A program made the translations under genes and the position numbers. 7,570 bases of DNA from Anaerolineales bacterium (lineage in GTDB: Bacteria; Chloroflexota; Anaerolineae; Promineifilales; Promineifilaceae). This document shows, piece after piece, positions 816-7,569 of this stretch (positions are counted from its first letter, which is position 1; the number at the start of each line of letters is the position of its first letter). The DNA lies in the NCBI GenBank assembly GCA_020432595.1, contig JAGQGA010000076.1, positions 1 to 7,570 on the forward strand. The letters are read 5' to 3'. The notes beneath the pieces were generated by a model. That model was not told the DNA's origin. It worked only from the letters and a program-made list of their open reading frames with translations, and ran no database searches.

Positions 816-1601
816 TTATACGGGGGTGTTTAGATAGACAGCAAAGCCAATGCCCAGACCCACAACAAGCAGCCCAGTGAGAATGACAACAATCATATCC
901 CAGGGAATGGTTGGGGAATCGGTATCTGCTTCTTTGAGACGACGGGGTCGCATCCGCAGAGCCAGGTAAATGGCGAAAGCAACAACGACAATCCACGTTA
1001 TCATTGAAGATACGTTAATGATAGGCCCACCAAATATCTTGCCAAGTAGGGAATCCCCAACTACCAGTTCGTTAGCGGGGTAGAAGGTGCGCATAACCAT
1101 CATGCCAAAAAAGATGCCAAACATAATGATAATGAGCGAGGTTGACCAAGCTGACCAACGCGGCATTTCATGAGATGGCATCGGATTGGGTTTGCGGTCA
1201 ATTCGCATTCCTTTTATGTCGCTGTTGACTTTCTTTTCCAGGGCTTGCTCGCTGGCTTTATAGTTGTCATCATCTTTTGCCCGTTGGATAAAATTAGCCA
1301 GAAAACGATAGAGGAAGGCCAGGACAATGCCGGGAACGATGACTGCGCCAATAAAGAAGGCGGCTAAAACACCAAAAATGACGAAGCCATTAACGGTACT
1401 AACGTTGAGCTGCTCTGCCAACATGGGGCCAATGCCGGGAATGGTGTCCAGGGCAATTTGCTCTGCTGCCACGGGTACGCGGGATGGTGTAACGCCACCG
1501 CCACCGCTAAATAAAGAGGGCCAAACGGCCGTTAAGACACTTGTTGCCACCAAAATGGCAATAATCATTCCCCAGTTTCGTAAAGATTCTTTGTTGCTCA
1601 A
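816..1601 (-). CDS. Five-helix membrane protein of unknown function, first gene of cox operon
   Basis: I do not recognise the family. The 261-residue protein has five probable membrane helices at about 11-31, 72-104, 151-173, 198-217 and 235-257. A Gly/Pro-containing loop follows helix 1 (GGGG at 33-36), a charged loop rich in Lys and Asp lies between helices 2 and 3 (about 105-150), and a short basic segment (RMRPRRLK) follows helix 4. No cysteine pairs, CxxCH or His-rich metal motifs are visible, so it is unlikely to carry haem or copper by a known motif. The start is TTG at 1601, with GGAG 9 nt upstream. The later in-frame ATG (residue 12) has no properly spaced SD and would cut into helix 1. 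Position directly before coxB, in the same direction, suggests an accessory or assembly role for the oxidase or a partner respiratory complex. That is inference from context only. It carries one AACGGCCGTT decamer (1524-1533), read as Thr-Ala-Val. Confidence 0.8.
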   Translation of the reverse strand: MSNKESLRNWGMIIAILVATSVLTAVWPSLFSGGGGVTPSRVPVAAEQIALDTIPGIGPMLAEQLNVSTVNGFVIFGVLAAFFIGAVIVPGIVLAFLYRFLANFIQRAKDDDNYKASEQALEKKVNSDIKGMRIDRKPNPMPSHEMPRWSAWSTSLIIIMFGIFFGMMVMRTFYPANELVVGDSLLGKIFGGPIINVSSMITWIVVVAFAIYLALRMRPRRLKEADTDSPTIPWDMIVVILTGLLVVGLGIGFAVYLNTPV

Positions 1602-1805
1602 GAGACTCTTCTCCGCTTACTTGGTTATTGGCAAACAAACCATTTTTACTCAAATTTAGCTGTTTGCTCCAACATCTCTTCCGTTTGTGTATTTTAGCAC
1701 AATCAAAGATGCAGGCAATTTTACAAAACCGCCCGAATATCGGTGCCGCTATTTTCCAAAACGAGATAGATAGACGTTATTTCCCGCTATTATACCTATT
1801 CTTGG
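1602..1805 (-). promoter_or_regulatory. Upstream region of the cox operon
   Basis: This 204-bp AT-richer gap between the degV stop and the TTG start of the membrane protein is the longest gene-free stretch of the window. It holds the promoter candidate described separately (1691-1718) and an isolated perfect TATAAT on the minus strand (1789-1794) that lacks a recognisable -35 box. I see no strong hairpin followed by a T-run that would end the degV transcript, so read-through from degV into the cox genes cannot be excluded. Confidence 0.55.
1691..1718 (-). promoter_or_regulatory. Candidate sigma-70-type promoter for the cox operon
   Basis: Read on the minus strand, TTGCCT (1718-1713) is followed after 16 bp by TAAAAT (1696-1691). 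TG stands one base before the -10 box, giving an extended -10 (TGCTAAAAT). The predicted transcript start is near 1684, leaving a leader of about 80 nt before the TTG codon at 1601. The -10 matches consensus at 5 of 6 bases and the -35 at 4 of 6, so this is plausible but unproven. Confidence 0.45.
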
Positions 1806-2651
1806 CTAAACAGGAATAGCAATTAACCCCAAGGCACCGGGGCCAAGATTAATAGCAACGGCCACAGCCATGTCTACCGTCATCAGTTCATGAATGTTAA
1901 AAGTCGCTTCGGCCTGTTGGCGCAATTGGGCGGCATCAGCCGGGGAATTGGCGTGGATGACGGCAAGCTGCACGGGCTGGTTGCCCACGCCCTGGTGAAC
2001 GGCATCCACAATGTGGCTGATGGCGCGTTTACGGGTGCGAACCCGGCCGGCCTCTACGACAACCCCATCTTCCAGCCGCATAATGGGTTTGATGTTGAGC
2101 AGGGAGGCCATTACCGATTTGAGAGAGCTGACGCGCCCCCCTTTGACGGCATATTCCAAGCTATCAATGGTAAAAATGACTACCATGTCGGCAACCATTT
2201 TTTGCAAACGGCCGTTAATGACATCTGCAGAAGCCCCTTCCTGCGCCAGCCGTGCCGCTTCAATTGCCATAAACCCCTGGGCGGCGGTGGCGGCTTGGGA
2301 ATCAAAAACACGGAAGGTGCCTTTGCCCGCCAATTCCTGGGCCGCCTGGGTGGCAGAAGCGTAGGTGCCACTTAACTTTTGGCCGACGGTAACGGTGTAA
2401 ATTTCATTTTCACCGCGTGCCAAAATTTCGTCATATTTTTGCACAAATTGATAGGGGGTTGGCTGAGACGTTTTGGGAAAGCTGCTGGCCTCAACGGTTT
2501 TGGCACGCTCATAAAATTTGGGGATATCCATTTCAATACCAGACAAATATTGTTCGGTGCCAAAGGCGATGTTGATGGGGATGATTTCGACATTGTATTT
2601 TTGGGCAAGTTCTGCTGGCAAATCACCAGCGTCGTCCATGAGGATTTGCAT
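1806..2651 (-). CDS. DegV family fatty-acid-binding protein
   Basis: DegV proteins are two-domain cytoplasmic carriers that bind one long-chain fatty acid; in Firmicutes they (FakB) present it to the kinase FakA. The 281 residues are a normal family length. Visible signatures are the fatty-acid headgroup motif TSQPTP at 61-66 in PKTSQP, LSGTYAS at 93-99, FDSQ at 116-119, the hallmark DSLEYAVKGGRVS at 163-175, and the C-terminal NLGPGALGLI at 268-277. The N-terminal strand reads LMDDAGDLP, where many members have a TDS-type motif, a mild departure. Start is ATG at 2651 with GAGGG 8 nt upstream. It lies 36 nt after the sigma-factor stop in the same direction, so probably in one operon. No fakA-like kinase is in the window, so the fatty-acid kinase role is not shown here. 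Decamer 2207-2216 lies inside and reads Asn-Gly-Arg. Confidence 0.93.
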   Translation of the reverse strand: MQILMDDAGDLPAELAQKYNVEIIPINIAFGTEQYLSGIEMDIPKFYERAKTVEASSFPKTSQPTPYQFVQKYDEILARGENEIYTVTVGQKLSGTYASATQAAQELAGKGTFRVFDSQAATAAQGFMAIEAARLAQEGASADVINGRLQKMVADMVVIFTIDSLEYAVKGGRVSSLKSVMASLLNIKPIMRLEDGVVVEAGRVRTRKRAISHIVDAVHQGVGNQPVQLAVIHANSPADAAQLRQQAEATFNIHELMTVDMAVAVAINLGPGALGLIAIPV

Positions 2652-2687
2652 TTTGTTTTCCCTCGTTTGATCAGTGAACCGGGTTTG

Positions 2688-3299
2688 CTAACGTTTGCGG
2701 CCAAACGGCCGTTGTAGAAACCGCAGCCCCTTCTTTTTACTTTCTTCCTGATTAGTTGCCCCTGTTAGCTCTTCACGCAAGGAAAGCAACGTTCGATGAT
2801 ACAGAGACTTGATAGCTCCTTCACTGCGCCCCATAATGTCGCCAATTTCTGCATTGGACAACCGATCTACAAATTTTAATGACAGCAGTTCCTGGCGGTC
2901 GGCCGGTAAACGGCGTATTGCCAGCATCAACGTTTCCTTGTCCTCCATCATCTGCGTGGCAAATTCTGGCCCTTCCCCTGCAAGCTGCCACTGCGACACA
3001 TCATCCAGAGCAATGAGCTTACGGCGGCTGTTGTCGCGGTGCCAGTTGGCAACCAGGTTGTGGGCAATGCGATAAAGCCAGGCAGAGAACGGCAGACCTT
3101 GGTCACGGTAGTTGGGCATATGGTTCATGGCTCGGATAAAAATTCGCGCCGTCAAATCCTCGGCATCGTCGCTGTTGCCGGTGCGGTAGTAGACATAATT
3201 GTAGATACGGTCAACATACCGCTCATACAGTTGCCCAAATGCCTCTTTGTCGGTTTTGGCTCGCTCAATCAGAGCGTTTTCGTCAATGCCAGAATCCAA
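2688..3299 (-). CDS. ECF-type sigma-70 family RNA polymerase sigma factor
   Basis: A short sigma factor of 203 residues with only regions 2 and 4, so it should direct RNA polymerase to an alternative promoter set. Region 2 spans about 18-92, with SDDAEDLTARIFIRA (core binding, 43-57) and FSAWLYRIAHNLVANWHRD (-10 recognition, 71-89). Region 4 spans about 124-176, with LPADRQELLSLKF (131-143) and the helix-turn-helix SNAEIGDIMGRSEGAIKSL (148-166). A basic tail follows (KKKGLRFLQRPFGRKR, 188-203), partly encoded by a palindromic decamer (2704-2713). Start is TTG at 3299, with AAGGA 7 nt upstream, which is convincing. No anti-sigma gene with zinc-binding or membrane features follows; the next gene is degV. 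The tail has no obvious zinc-binding or SnoaL-like domain. Targets are unknown. Confidence 0.93.
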   Translation of the reverse strand: MDSGIDENALIERAKTDKEAFGQLYERYVDRIYNYVYYRTGNSDDAEDLTARIFIRAMNHMPNYRDQGLPFSAWLYRIAHNLVANWHRDNSRRKLIALDDVSQWQLAGEGPEFATQMMEDKETLMLAIRRLPADRQELLSLKFVDRLSNAEIGDIMGRSEGAIKSLYHRTLLSLREELTGATNQEESKKKGLRFLQRPFGRKR

Positions 3300-3334
3300 T
3301 GGTTTATCCTTTGCTGCCGCCGTCTCTTGTTAGC

Positions 3335-3362
3335 AGTATATCAAAATCAGAGAAAGTGTCAG
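3335..3362 (-). promoter_or_regulatory. Promoter of the sigma factor-degV transcript
   Basis: On the minus strand CTGACA (3362-3357) and TATACT (3340-3335) are separated by 16 bp, and TGA precedes the -10 box, giving an extended -10 (TGATATACT). Each box matches consensus at 5 of 6 bases. Predicted start near 3328 gives a leader of about 28 nt carrying the AAGGA ribosome site. The match suggests transcription by the housekeeping sigma rather than autoregulation by the ECF factor itself. Confidence 0.6.
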
Positions 3363-3371
3363 GTTTCTATC

Positions 3372-3400
3372 TTGACGCACTTTTGGGGGTACGCTATGCT
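3372..3400 (+). promoter_or_regulatory. Promoter of the deacetylase gene, predicted leaderless
   Basis: TTGACG (3372-3377), 17 bp, TATGCT (3395-3400): 5 of 6 and 4 of 6 matches to consensus with optimal spacing. A start 7-9 bp after the -10 box falls at about 3407-3409, exactly on the ATG of the deacetylase at 3409. No Shine-Dalgarno sequence stands at the normal distance before this ATG, which fits a leaderless mRNA. The -35 box is only 9 bp from the -35 box of the opposite promoter. Confidence 0.55.
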
Positions 3401-3408
3401 CCCATCTT

Positions 3409-4524
3409 ATGGCAGAACGGAGTTCATCAGAGCGTAGCGGGGTTGATGGGGTGGGGTGCGTTGCCACGCTCCTGGTTTTGCTTTTGGTCATTTTTGTCGT
3501 GAGCACGGTGTTGGGTGGTAGCGGACAGGACGATGTGGCTGAGGCAACGGCCGTTCAGACCGCCTTAGCCGCAGTGACTGCCACGAACACCCAAACGGCC
3601 GTTCCTTCCCACACTCCCACCAACACGGCCACGCCTACGCAAACGGGCACCCCCACGCAAACGGCCTCCCCTCCGGCCACCTCCACCTTGATTCCAACAG
3701 TGACAGAAACGGCCGTTCCTCCCACCGATGCCCCACCCACCGCCACCTTCACGCCCACCGTGACCCCAACCCTGCCGCCGCTGCCCACCCCCAGCGGCAC
3801 CTACAGTTGGACGCTAAAGGTACCGATTTTGATGTACCACTACATCAGCGTGCCGCCCGAAGATGCCGACGTGTACCGTACCGACCTCTCCGTGGCTCCT
3901 GAAGATTTTCGGGCACAGATGCAATATTTGGCCGACAACGGCTTCACCACCATTGATTTGTATGATTTGTCGCTGGCAATTACCGCCAAAATTGAGCTGC
4001 CAGAAAAGCCGGTCATCATCACCATGGATGATGGCTATCTGGATAACTACACCGAAGCGTTCCCCGTTTTGCAGGAATTCGGCCAGAAAGCTACCTTCTT
4101 TATTGTGACTGAGTTTGTGGATTTTGGGCGCAAAGGGTACATGACCTGGCCGATGATTGAAGAGATGGCGGCGGCGGGGATGCGGATGGAGCCGCATTCG
4201 CGCACCCACCCTGACCTGCGTGAACGGGATCGGGATTTTCTGGTGTGGGAGATGTTGGGGCCGCAGGAGACGCTGGCGGCGCATATTGGCTACACTCCTC
4301 GCTTTTTTGCTTACCCCGGCGGCAGCTATGACGAAGATACGATTACGATGCTGCAAGAGCTGGATTTTTGGGGGGCGGTGGTGACGGCCGGTGGCAAATG
4401 GCATGGGTTTAATGACCGGTATGAGTGGACGCGAGTACGAATGCGGAACACCACCCACATTGCCGAGTTTGCTGATTTTGTGGATGCGGGTGATCACGTT
4501 GGCGGTAAACCGCCAGGTGGGTAG
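3409..4524 (+). CDS. Membrane-anchored polysaccharide deacetylase (NodB homology, CE4)
   Basis: Probable metal-dependent removal of acetyl groups from a cell-surface or extracellular polysaccharide; the substrate cannot be told from sequence. Of the 371 residues, about 1-17 are cytoplasmic and 18-36 form a hydrophobic anchor (TLLVLLLVIFVVS). A Thr/Pro/Ala linker spans about 45-130, followed by the NodB domain from VPILMYHYIS (138-147) to about 358. Catalytic motifs are present: TMDDGY at 205-210 (Asp207 base, Asp208 metal), HSRTH at 263-267 (His263 and His267 metal ligands), and FAYPGGSYD at 300-308. The VPILMYHYIS opening resembles the PgaB/IcaB-type branch. Start is ATG at 3409, chosen because it follows the promoter by leaderless spacing and leaves a normal short segment before the anchor. 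The linker carries three AACGGCCGTT decamers. The stop codon (4522-4524) abuts a hairpin element. No polysaccharide synthase is in the window. Confidence 0.93.
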   Translation: MAERSSSERSGVDGVGCVATLLVLLLVIFVVSTVLGGSGQDDVAEATAVQTALAAVTATNTQTAVPSHTPTNTATPTQTGTPTQTASPPATSTLIPTVTETAVPPTDAPPTATFTPTVTPTLPPLPTPSGTYSWTLKVPILMYHYISVPPEDADVYRTDLSVAPEDFRAQMQYLADNGFTTIDLYDLSLAITAKIELPEKPVIITMDDGYLDNYTEAFPVLQEFGQKATFFIVTEFVDFGRKGYMTWPMIEEMAAAGMRMEPHSRTHPDLRERDRDFLVWEMLGPQETLAAHIGYTPRFFAYPGGSYDEDTITMLQELDFWGAVVTAGGKWHGFNDRYEWTRVRMRNTTHIAEFADFVDAGDHVGGKPPGG

Positions 4525-4544
4525 GGGCGTATTGCATACGCCCT
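4524..4544. repeat. Short perfect hairpin overlapping the deacetylase stop codon
   Basis: GGGCGTAT (4525-4532), loop TGC, ATACGCCC (4536-4543) is a perfect 8-bp stem, extendable by one G-T pair at 4524/4544. It starts at the last base of the TAG codon and ends 16 nt before the preferred start of the next gene. It lacks a T-run, so it is a poor intrinsic terminator. It looks more like a dispersed repeat or an intercistronic mRNA-stabilising hairpin. A second small stem, GGCGG/CCGCC (4501-4514), lies inside the last codons. Confidence 0.6.
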
Positions 4545-4560
4545 CTTCGGAATGGTTGTC

Positions 4561-5049
4561 ATGATAAAACGGCCGTTTTTCTCCCTCACGCTCACAACTT
4601 TGCTGCTGCTTAACCTGCTGTCCACGCGCAGCCTGTTTGCCGCCACCAACCCCGCCGCCTATTTGCCCATCATCAAAGCCCACTATCCGTTTGCAAAAAC
4701 GGCCGTTAGTCCGGCTTACCTGCAAAACTTTGCTAACAACGCTGGTTGTCATTGGCTTGGCATCGCCGGAGGCTTGCAAGATGCCAACGGTAAACCAACG
4801 GGCGTGGGCGATTATCAGGTACACGTTTGGGGCAGCGGCATTGATGAGCGTGTGCCAATTGGCAGTGCCTCGGCTTATGGCCCAGCGGGTTGGGAGCAAT
4901 TTTTGTTTAGTTCGCCTGTCGTTCGCAGCTATTGGGTGCAATTGGAATGGGTGAGTGGAACGGCCGTTTCCGCCATCTATCCCATCATCACCCGCGCCAG
5001 TTGCGATGAAAACCTGGTTTGGTTTGATTTTCAGGCCAACCAGCCGTAA
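4561..5049 (+). CDS. Small secreted protein of unknown function
   Basis: Not recognised with certainty. The 162-residue product begins with a classic signal peptide: basic MIKRP, a Leu-rich core, then SLFA at 24-27 as likely cleavage site. The mature part of about 135 residues is rich in Gly, aromatic residues and beta-type segments. It holds two cysteines, Cys63 (NNAGCHWLGIAG) and Cys148 (RASCDENLVWFDF), which could form a disulphide closing a beta-sandwich. The stretch GLQDANGKPTG followed by YQVHVWGSG resembles carboxypeptidase-regulatory or Ig-like folds, where a strand-turn-strand carries D-x-N-G-x-P; this is only a structural guess. ATG 4561 is preferred over ATG 4552 because GGA lies 9 nt before it and because the n-region is then typical. 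The gap to the deacetylase is 36 nt and to the hydrolase 38 nt, so the three may be co-transcribed. Three decamers lie inside (4568 read Arg-Pro-Phe; 4698 and 4959 read Thr-Ala-Val). Confidence 0.8.
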   Translation: MIKRPFFSLTLTTLLLLNLLSTRSLFAATNPAAYLPIIKAHYPFAKTAVSPAYLQNFANNAGCHWLGIAGGLQDANGKPTGVGDYQVHVWGSGIDERVPIGSASAYGPAGWEQFLFSSPVVRSYWVQLEWVSGTAVSAIYPIITRASCDENLVWFDFQANQP

Positions 5050-5087
5050 CGTTTTGTATTTGTCCAAAGGAAAAAAGAGGCAAGATA

Positions 5088-5918
5088 ATGCAACATAACC
5101 AAGGAACATTTAAAGGTGCAGATGGCCTTGATCTGTTTTACCAGAGTTGGCACCCCGAGGGCGGAGCCGAGGCTACGCTGGTCATTGTTCACGGGCTGGG
5201 GGAACACAGCGGCCGTTATCCAAACGTGGTTAACCACTTTGTCCCCAAAGGGTATGCTATTTACGGCTTTGATAACCGTGGGCACGGCCGTTCGCCGGGG
5301 CAGCAAGGGTATGTCAACAGCTTTGATGAATTTGTGGCTGACGTGGGCGCGTTTGTGCAGATGGTGTCGCAGCGCGAGGCAGGCAAATCGTTTTTTCTGA
5401 TGGGTCACAGCATGGGCGGGTGCATTGTTTTGAACTATGTTATCAAACACCCCGAAGGGCTGGACGGCGTGATTGCTTCGGCTCCAGCGGTGGGCGCACT
5501 GGACATTCCCCCCATTTTGCTGCTGGTAAGCCGCGTTATGGAAAAGGTGGCACCCAAACTAAGCGTGGCAACTGGGCTGGATGCAACGGCCGTTTCTCGT
5601 GACCCTGCGGCTGTGGCAGCGTACCAAAATGACCCGCTGGTTCACGGCAAAGGCTCGCCGCGCTTTGCGATGGAGTTCAAGCGGAGTGCTGAATGGGCAC
5701 AGGCCAACGCCGGCCGTATCCAACTCCCCCTGCTCATGGTTCACGGCAGCCATGACCGGCTGGTGAACGTGGAAAACAGCCGCACCTTTTTTGCCAGCCT
5801 CACCCAGCTCGACAAAAAGCTGCTGGTCTATGAAGGTGGCTACCACGAACTCCACAACGATATTGAGTATGAGCAGGAATTAGCCGATATTGAGGCGTGG
5901 TTAGCGGAGCATCGGTAA
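5088..5918 (+). CDS. Alpha/beta hydrolase, monoacylglycerol lipase/lysophospholipase-like
   Basis: A serine hydrolase of the Hydrolase_4 (serine aminopeptidase S33) group, whose bacterial members include monoacylglycerol lipases and lysophospholipase L2-like enzymes. It likely cleaves glycerol monoesters or similar lipids, though the exact substrate is inference. Of 276 residues (normal length), the oxyanion-loop motif HGLGEHSGRY is at 35-44, DNRGHGRS at 62-69, and the nucleophile elbow GHSMGG at 106-111 with Ser108. The acid is Asp223 in HGSHDRLV, and the catalytic His253 lies in GGYHELHND. A lid region lies between about 135 and 205. No signal peptide, so cytoplasmic. ATG 5088 has AGAGG 7 nt upstream. 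The TAA stop lies within the first heptamer of the repeat hairpin that follows. Decamer 5585-5594 reads Thr-Ala-Val; two near-copies (5208-5217, 5283-5292) sit within conserved SGRY and HGRS motifs. Confidence 0.95.
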   Translation: MQHNQGTFKGADGLDLFYQSWHPEGGAEATLVIVHGLGEHSGRYPNVVNHFVPKGYAIYGFDNRGHGRSPGQQGYVNSFDEFVADVGAFVQMVSQREAGKSFFLMGHSMGGCIVLNYVIKHPEGLDGVIASAPAVGALDIPPILLLVSRVMEKVAPKLSVATGLDATAVSRDPAAVAAYQNDPLVHGKGSPRFAMEFKRSAEWAQANAGRIQLPLLMVHGSHDRLVNVENSRTFFASLTQLDKKLLVYEGGYHELHNDIEYEQELADIEAWLAEHR

Positions 5919-5981
5919 TCGGTAATCAGTAATCGGTAATCGGTAGCCTAGACTGATTACCGATTACTGATTACTGATTAC
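5913..5981. repeat. Heptamer-built inverted repeat between convergent genes
   Basis: Four copies of CRGTAAT (5913-5940) are followed by a short loop and four copies of the inverse, CYGATTA (5953-5980). Folded, 5915-5943 pairs with 5953-5981: a 29-bp stem with 27 Watson-Crick and two G-T pairs around the 9-nt loop TAGCCTAGA. It fills almost the whole 68-bp gap between the hydrolase and the oppositely oriented coiled-coil gene, beginning inside the hydrolase's last codons. A transcript from either side would form the hairpin, so it may end both genes or protect both 3' ends. There is no T-run typical of an intrinsic terminator. Confidence 0.85.
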
Positions 5982-5986
5982 ACTTC

Positions 5987-6946
5987 TTACGGGGTAGGCG
6001 TTGGGGTAATGGGTTCGGGGGTGGAGCCGACAAGCTGGGGTTGAGGCAGGATGCGTTCGGCCAACACGGTGTCGAGTTCATTCCACGCCGTTTCCAGGTC
6101 GGCGGCGGCGGTGGTGGGGTCGTCGGGCAGGTTGGCAAAGGCCAGAGCCAGCCGCCCTTGCACCGCTTTGTAACTGTTGGCTACTTCCTCGCTGCTTGTG
6201 GTGACGAGCAAATCCATGGTGCGAACGGCCGTTTCCACATCATCCCCCGCCAGCCCCACATTGTTCTCCGCCAGCCGCAGCCGCGCCCGCGTAATCAGTT
6301 CCCATACGCGGAACAAAGCCAGCACCTCACGTAGCTCCTGCGTCCGGGCATCATCTGCCGCCGCTTGCTGCAAATCGGTGACAGAGGTGTCGAGAACGGC
6401 CGTTTGTTCTTGCAACCCCGTCACCGCCCCGTCAATTCGGTCAACCGTTCCCCCCAGCGCGTCCACTTCGCCGCCCGTGCGGTTCAAATCTGCTTGCAGC
6501 GATGTGATAGCCTCTCCCAGCGAGGCGATGTCGTCGAGTGCCGTTTCGCCGCTGCTGTTGGCAACGGCAAGCTGGCTGTTTAGCGCATCCAGCAGTTCGC
6601 CTTGGCGCGAAACAGATTCAGAAAGGGTGTCGGTAACGGCCGTTTGTTCCCGTGCAAATGCCGCCAAATCCCGTTCCGCCCCATCCAACTGCGCCTGCCG
6701 CGTCATCTGTGCTGTTTCCAGCCCGTCAATTTGCGCCGCCAGCGAACCTATTTCCCGCGAATTGGCCTCAATTCGCACCGCTGTGCTGTTGAATGAACGC
6801 TGCAATTCCTGATAGGCAAAAAAGCCAAGCAGTGGCAGCCCCACCAAAAAAGCAATCAAAATCAACGTAATGATCGTCGTGCGGAAAACCCAGTACAGGC
6901 TGCGCCCCAAACGCTGGCCGAAACCGGGTTGTGGTTCTGAACTCAT
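5987..6946 (-). CDS. Membrane-anchored coiled-coil protein with Thr/Pro C-terminal tail
   Basis: No family assigned. The 319-residue protein has a short basic N-terminus, a membrane helix at about 22-45 (TTIITLILIAFLVGLPLLG), and a long Gln/Leu/Ala/Asp-rich coiled coil at about 47-200. A separate helical segment follows at about 201-298 (LREVLALFRVWELITRARLRLAENN), and the end is a short TPEPITPTPTP tail. The anchor-plus-coiled-coil-plus-helical plan vaguely recalls HemX-like proteins, but I see no decisive motif. The coiled coil contains EQTAVxDT twice, at 100-107 and 180-187. Start is ATG 6946, with AGGAG 8 nt upstream. An in-frame TTG at 6952 lies too close to that SD. The upstream gap carries a 54-bp palindrome. 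The neighbouring upstream gene has the same tail style and looks like a relative. Decamers at 6224, 6395 and 6635 all read Thr-Ala-Val. Confidence 0.82.
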   Translation of the reverse strand: MSSEPQPGFGQRLGRSLYWVFRTTIITLILIAFLVGLPLLGFFAYQELQRSFNSTAVRIEANSREIGSLAAQIDGLETAQMTRQAQLDGAERDLAAFAREQTAVTDTLSESVSRQGELLDALNSQLAVANSSGETALDDIASLGEAITSLQADLNRTGGEVDALGGTVDRIDGAVTGLQEQTAVLDTSVTDLQQAAADDARTQELREVLALFRVWELITRARLRLAENNVGLAGDDVETAVRTMDLLVTTSSEEVANSYKAVQGRLALAFANLPDDPTTAAADLETAWNELDTVLAERILPQPQLVGSTPEPITPTPTP

Positions 6947-6968
6947 GAGCAAAACTCCTCAAGAAATA

Positions 6969-7022
6969 GGACGCAGATTGACCTGATTTTCCTGATCAGG
7001 AAGATCAGGCCAATCTGCGTCC
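6969..7022. repeat. 54-bp near-perfect palindrome between two coiled-coil genes
   Basis: The left half 6969-6995 and right half 6996-7022 are inverse complements at 25 of 27 positions; one exception is a G-T wobble and one an A-C mismatch. The outer arms are GGACGCAGATTG and CAATCTGCGTCC, and the centre is CCTGATCAGG, itself a palindrome. There is no loop, so it would extrude as a cruciform or fold as a long RNA hairpin. It sits 49 nt after the stop of the upstream gene and 22 nt before the start of the downstream one. It encodes nothing and is not followed by a strong T-run. It may be a dispersed intergenic repeat (REP/MITE-like) or an RNA-processing or transcription-attenuation hairpin. Confidence 0.85.
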
Positions 7023-7071
7023 CATTTTCATTCTTCATGGTGGGCACTCGTTTATGAAACCCCCCGCTTCA

Positions 7072-7569
7072 TTATCCCGACGGGGCAAAGGCGGTGGCTG
7101 TGGGGCGGGGTGTGCGGGTGGCGGGTAGGGCGGTGGTGGGTGTAGGGGCTGGAGTGGGTGTGTCGCTGGCGGGAACGGCCGTTGGTGTAACCGTCTCACC
7201 TGCGGGCACATCTAGCGTTAGCAGCAAGTCACGCAGCCGCGCCAGAAAGGTGTTGAACGTCTCCGCTGCCACCGTAATCGCATCAATTTCCTGGTCTAGC
7301 TGGGTCGTTGTTTCCGACAGGTTGGTGATGTCGGCCTGGGTTGTGGCTACTATGTGTGCCACGGTTGCCAAATCGGCCTGGGCAGTGGCAATGTCGCCGC
7401 TGCTTTGCTGCTGTTGCAGCACCAAATCGCCGCTGCGGGTAGCAAGGATGCTGACGGCGTTGCCGAGTTGCGCCACTTGCGCGGCCAAATCCCCTTGTGC
7501 CGCCTGCGCCCCGGCCAGTTCCTGCTGAATTTGGGCATCGGTGCGGCTGAAGGCGAGTGAACCATCGTT
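7072..7569 (-). CDS. Coiled-coil protein with Thr/Pro-rich C-terminal tail, 5'-truncated by window edge
   Basis: Only the C-terminal 165 residues are in the window; the frame stays open to the right edge with no stop, so the real start lies beyond it. An internal TTG at 7488 has no SD and should not be taken as the start. The visible part is a Gln/Ala/Leu/Asp-rich coiled coil (about residues 10-115 of the fragment, with QQQQ and repeated alanine-leucine heptads). It then becomes a tail of roughly 45 residues built from Thr, Pro and Ala (SDTPTPAPTPTTALP, RTPRPTATA) ending at TAA 7072-7074. The design matches the next gene downstream (5987-6946), suggesting duplication or a shared complex; a membrane anchor would be expected in the missing N-terminus. 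The decamer at 7174-7183 reads Thr-Ala-Val at the junction between coiled coil and tail. Function unknown. Confidence 0.82.
   Translation of the reverse strand, partial: NDGSLAFSRTDAQIQQELAGAQAAQGDLAAQVAQLGNAVSILATRSGDLVLQQQQSSGDIATAQADLATVAHIVATTQADITNLSETTTQLDQEIDAITVAAETFNTFLARLRDLLLTLDVPAGETVTPTAVPASDTPTPAPTPTTALPATRTPRPTATAFAPSG

Follow-up and report, generated by a model that had tools for sequence, protein, structure and literature searches.

A highly iterated palindrome with the core CGGCCG, and its dialects, in an order of the Chloroflexota

Why does a single 10-bp palindrome recur again and again in a short piece of a bacterial genome? The 7,570-base stretch of contig JAGQGA010000076.1 analyzed here (the window) contains 14 perfect copies of the decamer AACGGCCGTT between positions 1524 and 7183. 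All of them fall within eight open reading frames (ORFs), of which five are on the minus strand and three on the plus strand, with no copy outside these genes, and they are read as TAV (Thr-Ala-Val) in 11 cases, as RPF in two and as NGR in one. An earlier note on this DNA had given exactly this copy number, span and set of frames, had placed the copies in eight genes on both strands, and had proposed a highly iterated palindrome (HIP) of the type of cyanobacterial HIP1. Based on comparisons with related genomes, we are virtually certain that the palindrome is a member of the HIP class, and we consider it rather probable that AACGGCCGTT is the local dialect of a HIP that is shared across the order, is built on the core CGGCCG and is maintained by a force acting on each site, with a methyltransferase as the most likely reader.

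In 200 dinucleotide shuffles of the window, AACGGCCGTT occurred 0.02 times on average and at most once, and none of the shuffles reached 14 copies. Among the 10-mer palindromes of the window, AACGGCCGTT was the only one occurring more than once. The octamer ACGGCCGT at its center has 15 copies, while the runner-up among 8-mer palindromes has two. The unit is nested, since 15 of the 21 copies of the core CGGCCG are extended to the octamer and 14 of these 15 to the decamer. The nine listed ORFs of the window contain 12 Thr-Ala-Val tripeptides, 11 of which are encoded by the decamer. Its copies, followed by two variants differing from it at one base, are:

1524..1533, AACGGCCGTT, TAV frame, in a minus-strand ORF at 816-1601
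2207..2216, AACGGCCGTT, non-TAV frame, in the DegV gene, minus strand, 1806-2651
2704..2713, AACGGCCGTT, non-TAV frame, in the sigma-70 family gene, minus strand, 2688-3299
3546..3555, AACGGCCGTT, TAV frame, in the polysaccharide deacetylase gene, plus strand, 3409-4524
3594..3603, AACGGCCGTT, TAV frame, in the same polysaccharide deacetylase gene
3708..3717, AACGGCCGTT, TAV frame, in the same polysaccharide deacetylase gene
4568..4577, AACGGCCGTT, non-TAV frame, in a plus-strand ORF at 4552-5049
4698..4707, AACGGCCGTT, TAV frame, in the same ORF at 4552-5049
4959..4968, AACGGCCGTT, TAV frame, in the same ORF at 4552-5049
5585..5594, AACGGCCGTT, TAV frame, in the alpha/beta hydrolase gene, plus strand, 5088-5918
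6224..6233, AACGGCCGTT, TAV frame, in a minus-strand ORF at 5987-6952
6395..6404, AACGGCCGTT, TAV frame, in the same ORF at 5987-6952
6635..6644, AACGGCCGTT, TAV frame, in the same ORF at 5987-6952
7174..7183, AACGGCCGTT, TAV frame, in a minus-strand ORF running from 7072 to the window end
5208..5217, AGCGGCCGTT, one-off variant of the decamer
5283..5292, CACGGCCGTT, one-off variant of the decamer with the octamer ACGGCCGT intact

The genome-wide evidence comes from relatives, namely 56 genomes of the Chloroflexota order containing Promineifilum, the source genome of the window standing outside these counts. We call this order Promineifilales because NCBI places Promineifilum and Candidatus Leptofilum there and because a Promineifilum sp. 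locus (L004) shares the order of genome G006, and we infer that the window belongs to it as well. The nearest relative of the coxB protein in the window is that of locus L001 (61% identity), in the company of metagenome-assembled genomes (MAGs) labelled Anaerolineales, Anaerolineae, Ardenticatenia, Promineifilum and Chloroflexi. In 80 genomes, CGGCCG was counted alongside GCCGGC, the reversed control. Among the 56 of the order, 31 have a CGGCCG-based octamer, mostly at 1,000-2,100 per Mb, 21 have an excess of the bare hexamer, and four (G007, G018, G028 and G031) have neither. The number of ACGGCCGT copies ranges from 14 to 15,176 per genome across the order. The ends A and T flank more than half of the CGGCCG copies in 24 genomes and 34-50% in four more, one of which, the partial genome G027, has merely 437 octamers per Mb (these 28 are referred to as the A..T genomes). 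The 24 genomes harbor 2,984-15,176 octamers each versus 40-459 copies of the reversed control word, i.e., 991-2,088 octamers per Mb, which is inside the HIP range of about 500-2,500. The proposal of a HIP1-type palindrome is therefore borne out genome-wide in the relatives, and neither a count near expectation nor enrichment at one locus, the two outcomes that the earlier note had named as speaking against it, occurred there.

The core of the word is constant and its ends define dialects. In the fetched loci most genomes write ACGGCCGT, G022 and G035 write TCGGCCGA (T..A) and G048 writes GCGGCCGC (G..C), with two-fold symmetry retained in all dialects; genome-wide, KCGGCCGM accounts for 83-90% of CGGCCG in the latter three (11,584 of 13,891 in G022, 8,144 of 9,713 in G035 and 12,431 of 13,814 in G048). 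The decamer AACGGCCGTT is a sub-lineage form found in the window, G024 and G025. It makes up 84% of the octamers in G024 and 82% in G025, 54-55% in G026 and G045, and 5-50% in the remaining A..T genomes. The 21 hexamer-excess genomes favor no end, and the excess is weak in some of them (ratio of CGGCCG to control 1.1 in G043 and 1.3 in G057). In an rpoB tree of 40 genomes, in which several forks are weak, the octamer genomes are mostly placed together and the losses are scattered: G018 is nested in the octamer group, G007 stands beside G028, and the hexamer-only genomes G039, G040, G042 and G004 fall in between.

Three further observations concern these states. CGGCCG reaches 3.0-5.1 copies per kb in G049-G053 and G023 with no strong preference at the ends, possibly an ancestral or relaxed state. 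GCCGGC is nearly absent from G048 (51 copies in 8.0 Mb) and G023 (132 copies in 4.1 Mb). G031 harbors a palindrome with a different core, TGCCGGCA, with 3,665 copies genome-wide and 24 in 27 kb (L145, L278, L279 and L327-L329), and this word seems to replace the CGGCCG word there.

Codon choice was counted in the fetched loci. An ORF was used if another genome had a homologue of it (1,070 of 2,096), and those of the window were used regardless; of the 28 A..T genomes 26 were included, with G027 and G045 left out. TAV is written ACG GCC GT, and hence as ACGGCCGT, in 506 of 521 cases, whereas TA followed by a residue other than V uses ACG GCC in 221 of 1,040. The T..A genomes write SA[DE] as TCG GCC GA in 20 of 20 cases versus 6 of 62 otherwise, and G048 writes AAA as GCG GCC GC in 13 of 13 cases versus 1 of 36. 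In the second frame, where the codon before already supplies its outer bases, the word is completed in 322 of 355 (A..T), 15 of 16 (T..A) and 8 of 9 (G..C) cases. The first-frame rule recurs in loci fetched later, with 6 of 6 in G048 (0.6 expected) and 10 of 10 in G022 and G035 (1.0 expected), and the TGCCGGCA word of G031 fills 23 of 41 openings where about 2.5 are expected. Foreign dialects behave differently in the A..T genomes G013 and G006 (L013, L130, L251, L006, L126 and L245): GCGGCCGC is avoided and TCGGCCGA is neutral, since they fill 0 of 103 openings versus 9.4 expected and 2 of 98 versus about 1.7 expected, respectively. The decamer, in ORFs called mechanically, fills 11 of 12 openings in the window, 13 of 14 in G024 and 12 of 28 in G006.

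The word goes with an altered tripeptide content of the proteins. TAV is 5.5 times as frequent in the A..T genomes as expected from their amino acids (521 versus 94). For the remaining groups of the order, and for loci treated as lying beyond it, the factor is only 0.5-1.2, with zero versus one expected in G031. Likewise, from small counts, SAD and SAE are enriched 3.4 and 2.6 times in the T..A genomes and AAA 3.9 times in G048. Because the enrichment of TAV is found in the A..T genomes and not in the other groups, the palindrome appears to write this protein motif. The earlier note had stated that no shared protein motif explains the palindrome. The relation is better reversed, as the DNA word appears to shape the motif.

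The word is also kept between orthologues, as the earlier note had proposed to check. Pairs with less than 55% identity (octamer set) or less than 50% (lineage-loss and hexamer set), or with fewer than 60 aligned residues, were excluded. Where the amino acids over the span are conserved, the partner has an identical ACGGCCGT in 298 of 312 cases, compared with 1,800 of 4,082 for other words of the same composition and 126 of 362 for other palindromic octamers; of the 197 octamers compared 25 times or more, it is the best kept. In the same genomes, CGGCCG lacking the A..T context is kept in 87 of 140 cases, versus 1,063 of 1,950 for other C3G3 hexamers, which indicates that the octamer is the conserved unit in the A..T genomes. 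A matched-codon control in seven genome pairs, comparing the same two codons with and without the third partner, gave the same picture in the three frames: the HIP is kept in 98 of 98, 52 of 53 and 32 of 33 cases, and the two codons without their partner in 18 of 32, 17 of 31 and 8 of 16. The hexamer-only groups keep the hexamer, in 94 of 122 versus 64 of 157 cases for G050-G052, in 66 of 96 versus 26 of 125 for pairs among G049-G053, and in 340 of 606 versus 1,584 of 4,438 for the Promineifilum group (GCCGGC there, 134 of 364). TCGGCCGA is kept in 4 of 5 cases between G022 and G035 (background 12 of 123). Finally, G034 keeps 24 of 25 octamers of G005, G029 and G020 (background 46 of 228), while G018, which lacks the word, keeps 0 of 12 octamers of G005, G029, G020 and G034 (background 47 of 253).

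The copies follow no required spacing, since the gaps between octamers are approximately exponential (coefficient of variation 1.06) and TAV is written as the HIP equally near to and far from other copies, in 154 of 157 cases when the gene has another copy at most 150 bp away and in 352 of 364 otherwise; counts in 2-kb bins are close to Poisson (variance/mean 1.19). The near-exponential gaps and the absent neighbor effect led us to reject even spacing as well as local saturation. As neither spacing nor neighboring copies have an effect, the force seems to act per site, and we hold it very probable that the word is maintained in this way instead of by spacing. The octamer occurs in coding and non-coding DNA and in all frames. 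In the comparison of genes and gaps that the earlier note had called for, its density in the relatives is 1.53 per kb inside and 0.96 per kb outside ORFs. Since the codon rule is near-complete, the force per site can be measured: 38 intergenic octamers in 42.5 kb versus 0.61 expected give an observed/expected ratio (O/E) of 62 (natural logarithm 4.1), which is similar in strength to the TAV rule, whose odds ratio is 125 (natural logarithm 4.8). Taken as selection, this would amount to a scaled coefficient of roughly 4-5 at each site. Deviations from the octamer are concentrated at its outer bases, in a pattern like that of HIP1: the end-base one-offs TCGGCCGT, GCGGCCGT and CCGGCCGT have O/E values of 3.9, 1.9 and 0.8, and those of the core 0.3-0.8, except for ACGACCGT at 1.15, with eight of the nine under expectation.

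We propose that a sequence-specific symmetric reader would recognize the CGGCCG core together with the dialect ends, and that each site would be held by its own force of about 4-5 natural-log odds units, either selection or repair biased towards the word. A methyltransferase might mark the site, and the mark might be used in repair or in the processing of DNA ends. That the reader is a DNA methyltransferase is a tentative suggestion, the likeliest single reading but less probable than not. The best candidate for it, still a weak one whose distribution fits imperfectly, is a protein of about 660 amino acids in G006, a genome with no PF00145 match and with three partial PF01555 matches, two of which lie within this protein. 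It has cysteines in mid-protein and the motif order DPxMGGGTT then DPPYFD. The candidate scores above the PF01555 cut-off, matching in part the NF042963 (DUF1156), CcrM, PADLOC PglX, type II and DUF1156 models; its likeness to DUF1156/CcrM-like methyltransferases (PF01555, DPPY) is distant, with NCBIfam matches far below their cut-offs. Of the 56 genomes in the order, 43 have an orthologue (E <1e-80), as against 0 of 24 outside it; these 43 comprise 29 of the 31 octamer genomes and 14 of the other 25 (Fisher p 0.0013, kinship ignored); G018, which has lost the word, lacks one. In a protein database there are 2,204 relatives of the candidate, and the named organisms among the best 120 listed are Chloroflexota, including Candidatus Leptofilum. 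A single classical cytosine-5 methyltransferase for all was rejected, as PF00145 has no match in the octamer genomes G005, G006, G010, G013, G015 and several others.

No neighboring gene is common to 27 surroundings of the candidate, where few neighbors are annotated and a restriction partner in a single genome is possible, and a synteny partner of all copies was accordingly dropped. Five genomes that differ in dialect (G022, G034, G035, G037 and G048) share the next clustered neighbors of the candidate gene. According to Pfam, in G022 and G037 NurA lies next to the candidate and HerA three ORFs beyond NurA (L263, 9465-15438; L261, 8835-15380), both downstream, and clustered homologues occur in the three further genomes. 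A bolder proposal, which we regard as quite improbable, is that the octamer is a self-mark read by the methyltransferase and a NurA-HerA DNA-end machine, i.e., a symmetric methylation-dependent Chi-like signal, with the dialects acting as genetic barriers; if true, the mark would have the strength to alter protein sequences at thousands of positions.

Several observations weigh against a per-site force with a methyltransferase as reader. An orthologue of the candidate is missing from the octamer genomes G045 and G046; in G045, PF00145 is unmatched and PF01555 has a single match, which is under the family cut-off. G007 has an orthologue, cut by a contig end, yet no HIP, while the hexamer-rich genomes G023 and G049-G053 have none, and G053, with 25,568 CGGCCG copies, has no PF00145 or PF01555 match at E <= 0.001. 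The comparison of 29 of 31 with 14 of 25 genomes treats kin as independent and is made on MAGs of unstated completeness; similarly, pooled orthologue counts such as 298 of 312 are not independent, as the comparisons reuse genomes and some sets count both directions. As for the codon rule, the other two frames are filled less in the fresh loci (4 of 5 and 5 of 8 in G048; 5 of 11 and 2 of 3 in G022 and G035), and in G025 the octamer fills merely 1 of 6 and 1 of 4 openings in two frames and the decamer 0 of 2. Among the tripeptides, those of the form xGR are unspecific and a weaker protein sign, because YGR is enriched 3.0 times in the A..T genomes and also 2.8 times in the hexamer and no-HIP groups.

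Could the word be explained otherwise? Codon or base-composition bias, to which the 11 TAV copies among the 14 in the window might point, has hardly any probability and was rejected: the same codons without the third partner are used in 21% versus 97% of cases, other dialects pick other codons, intergenic DNA is enriched too, and the reversed word is rare in the A..T genomes. A binding site for a dimeric protein, kept by selection without methylation and serving chromosome organization or, as a palindromic Chi-like site, DNA-end repair, is an unlikely alternative. The strong conservation of the whole symmetric octamer, the abundance of the word in G053 in spite of its lack of both methyltransferase families, and the NurA and HerA genes near the candidate are in agreement with it, but the copies are spaced at random with no preferred interval, and known Chi sites are non-palindromic.

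A third possibility is a DNA uptake signal, whereby word-bearing DNA would be preferentially taken up and recombination would copy the word into near-matches (molecular drive). It would yield a per-site drive without spacing, lineage dialects, an effect on proteins and a high density, and excerpts of PMC1939737 describe such a drive towards over-representation of uptake sequences. However, the uptake sequences described there are not palindromes, whereas symmetry is found here in every dialect, and an excess in non-coding DNA is reported for them, in contrast to the lower density that we see outside ORFs; we thus judge this explanation fairly unlikely. We give a similarly low probability to a functionless by-product of methyl-directed mismatch repair, which would ratchet near-matches into the word as in the cyanobacterial model of Elhai 2015. 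Enrichment of two of the three outer-base one-offs with depletion of most core one-offs, as for HIP1, the preservation of the core by the dialects, and the comparable enrichment at intergenic and synonymous sites are in line with such a ratchet. On the other hand, the model, as described in excerpts of that paper (PMC4390886), saturates near one site per 1,000 nt, while TAV beside existing copies is equally often the HIP here, and densities reach 2.1 octamers per kb (G017) and 5.1 hexamers per kb (G023). Of the roles that the earlier note had listed, the best fit is a site for methylation or binding with a drive on each site; even spacing fits badly.

Outside the order, among 397 genomes of the phylum (from a draw of 400), none, on inspection by eye, both exceeded 0.5 copies per kb and had a CGGCCG/GCCGGC ratio of more than 2. 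In 60 further coxB loci (933 kb; L020-L080 minus L030), 23 of them in genomes outside the order and the other 37 unplaced, CGGCCG is found at 0.6 of expectation. In six genomes outside the order (G112, G121, G130, G139, G148 and G186) CGGCCG has 23-81 copies in 3.9-5.6 Mb and GCCGGC is common, which suggests avoidance of CGGCCG there. GCCGGC as a second HIP elsewhere in the phylum was dropped, though not disproved. Of 20 regions, 16 of them from GCCGGC-rich genomes and four from genomes with CGGCCG above control, two read as N and the other 18 had no GCCGGC octamer as prominent as the HIP octamers, although the hexamer is raised in some (24 versus 7.2 expected in G359; 39 versus 25.4 in G350). 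Within the window, two 7-bp tandem arrays at 5911-5981, ATCGGTA repeated five times and ACTGATT 4.3 times, with units that are approximately reverse complements, sit where two convergent genes meet and are possibly a terminator.

The order thus presents a second, sharper case of the HIP puzzle so far discussed for cyanobacteria, in which dialects, decamer, hexamer-only and lost states serve as the comparative replicates that the HIP question lacks. For this order the near-complete codon rule argues against spacing-based models, and it offers a DNA word that appears to shape proteins. The hosts are sludge and sediment bacteria of one order that carry the word thousands of times per genome.

How does this word compare with known systems? 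A target of restriction-modification is expected to be depleted in the host genome, whereas CGGCCG is strongly over-represented in most of the order. REP-type elements, being longer and intergenic with a few to some hundreds of copies, do not fit a word of 8-10 bp that is mostly genic and has thousands of copies. The repeat of Caldithrix abyssi, from an unrelated phylum, is likewise a genome-wide palindrome, but differs in being 18 nt long, with 38 exact copies lying mostly outside genes, and REP-like (excerpts of PMC5317091). Uptake sequences of Pasteurellaceae and Neisseriaceae share with our word a very high frequency, a drive-like nature and group-specific forms; unlike the Chloroflexota word, palindromic in all dialects, they are non-palindromic with an implied receptor (excerpts of PMC1939737). 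As to methylation, a conserved enzyme in Synechocystis N4-methylates GGCC, with consequences for replication and repair (PMC6560206, in part). In the excerpted methylomes of Lake Biwa Chloroflexi (PMC6329791), the motifs are GANTC, TTAA and GCWGC, from three genomes, two of which are described as relatives of CL500-11 and none of which is shown to be of this order. The excerpts of PMC12772301, where the named host is a sludge member of the Chloroflexota from another order (B4-G1), give no CGGCCG motif.

The closest relative in kind is HIP1, known in cyanobacteria since 1995. According to excerpts of Elhai 2015 (PMC4390886), it is GCGATCGC, with the alternate TCGATCGA and further unrelated alternates, and its relation to methyltransferases was called a mystery; the string 'chloroflex' is absent from the main text of that paper. 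We found no report of the Chloroflexota palindrome in the open-licence literature, which was searched mostly by topic and little by the word itself. It is not HIP1, as its core is CGGCCG instead of GCGATCGC with GATC and CGATCG methyltransferases. HIP1, as described in the same excerpts (PMC4390886), and the present word are both short GC-rich palindromes at about 500-2,500 per Mb with a constant core and changed outer bases, one-offs mainly at the ends, a sporadic swap for another palindrome and suspected orphan methyltransferases. They differ in phylum and core, and in that our order displays three octamer dialects, a decamer and a hexamer-only state; in the present data, set beside HIP1 data that were not re-analyzed, first-frame sites are 97% used with no neighbor effect and no saturation, and the link to a methyltransferase is weaker. 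The HIP class is therefore known, while this member of it and its sharp codon rule are new to the literature searched.

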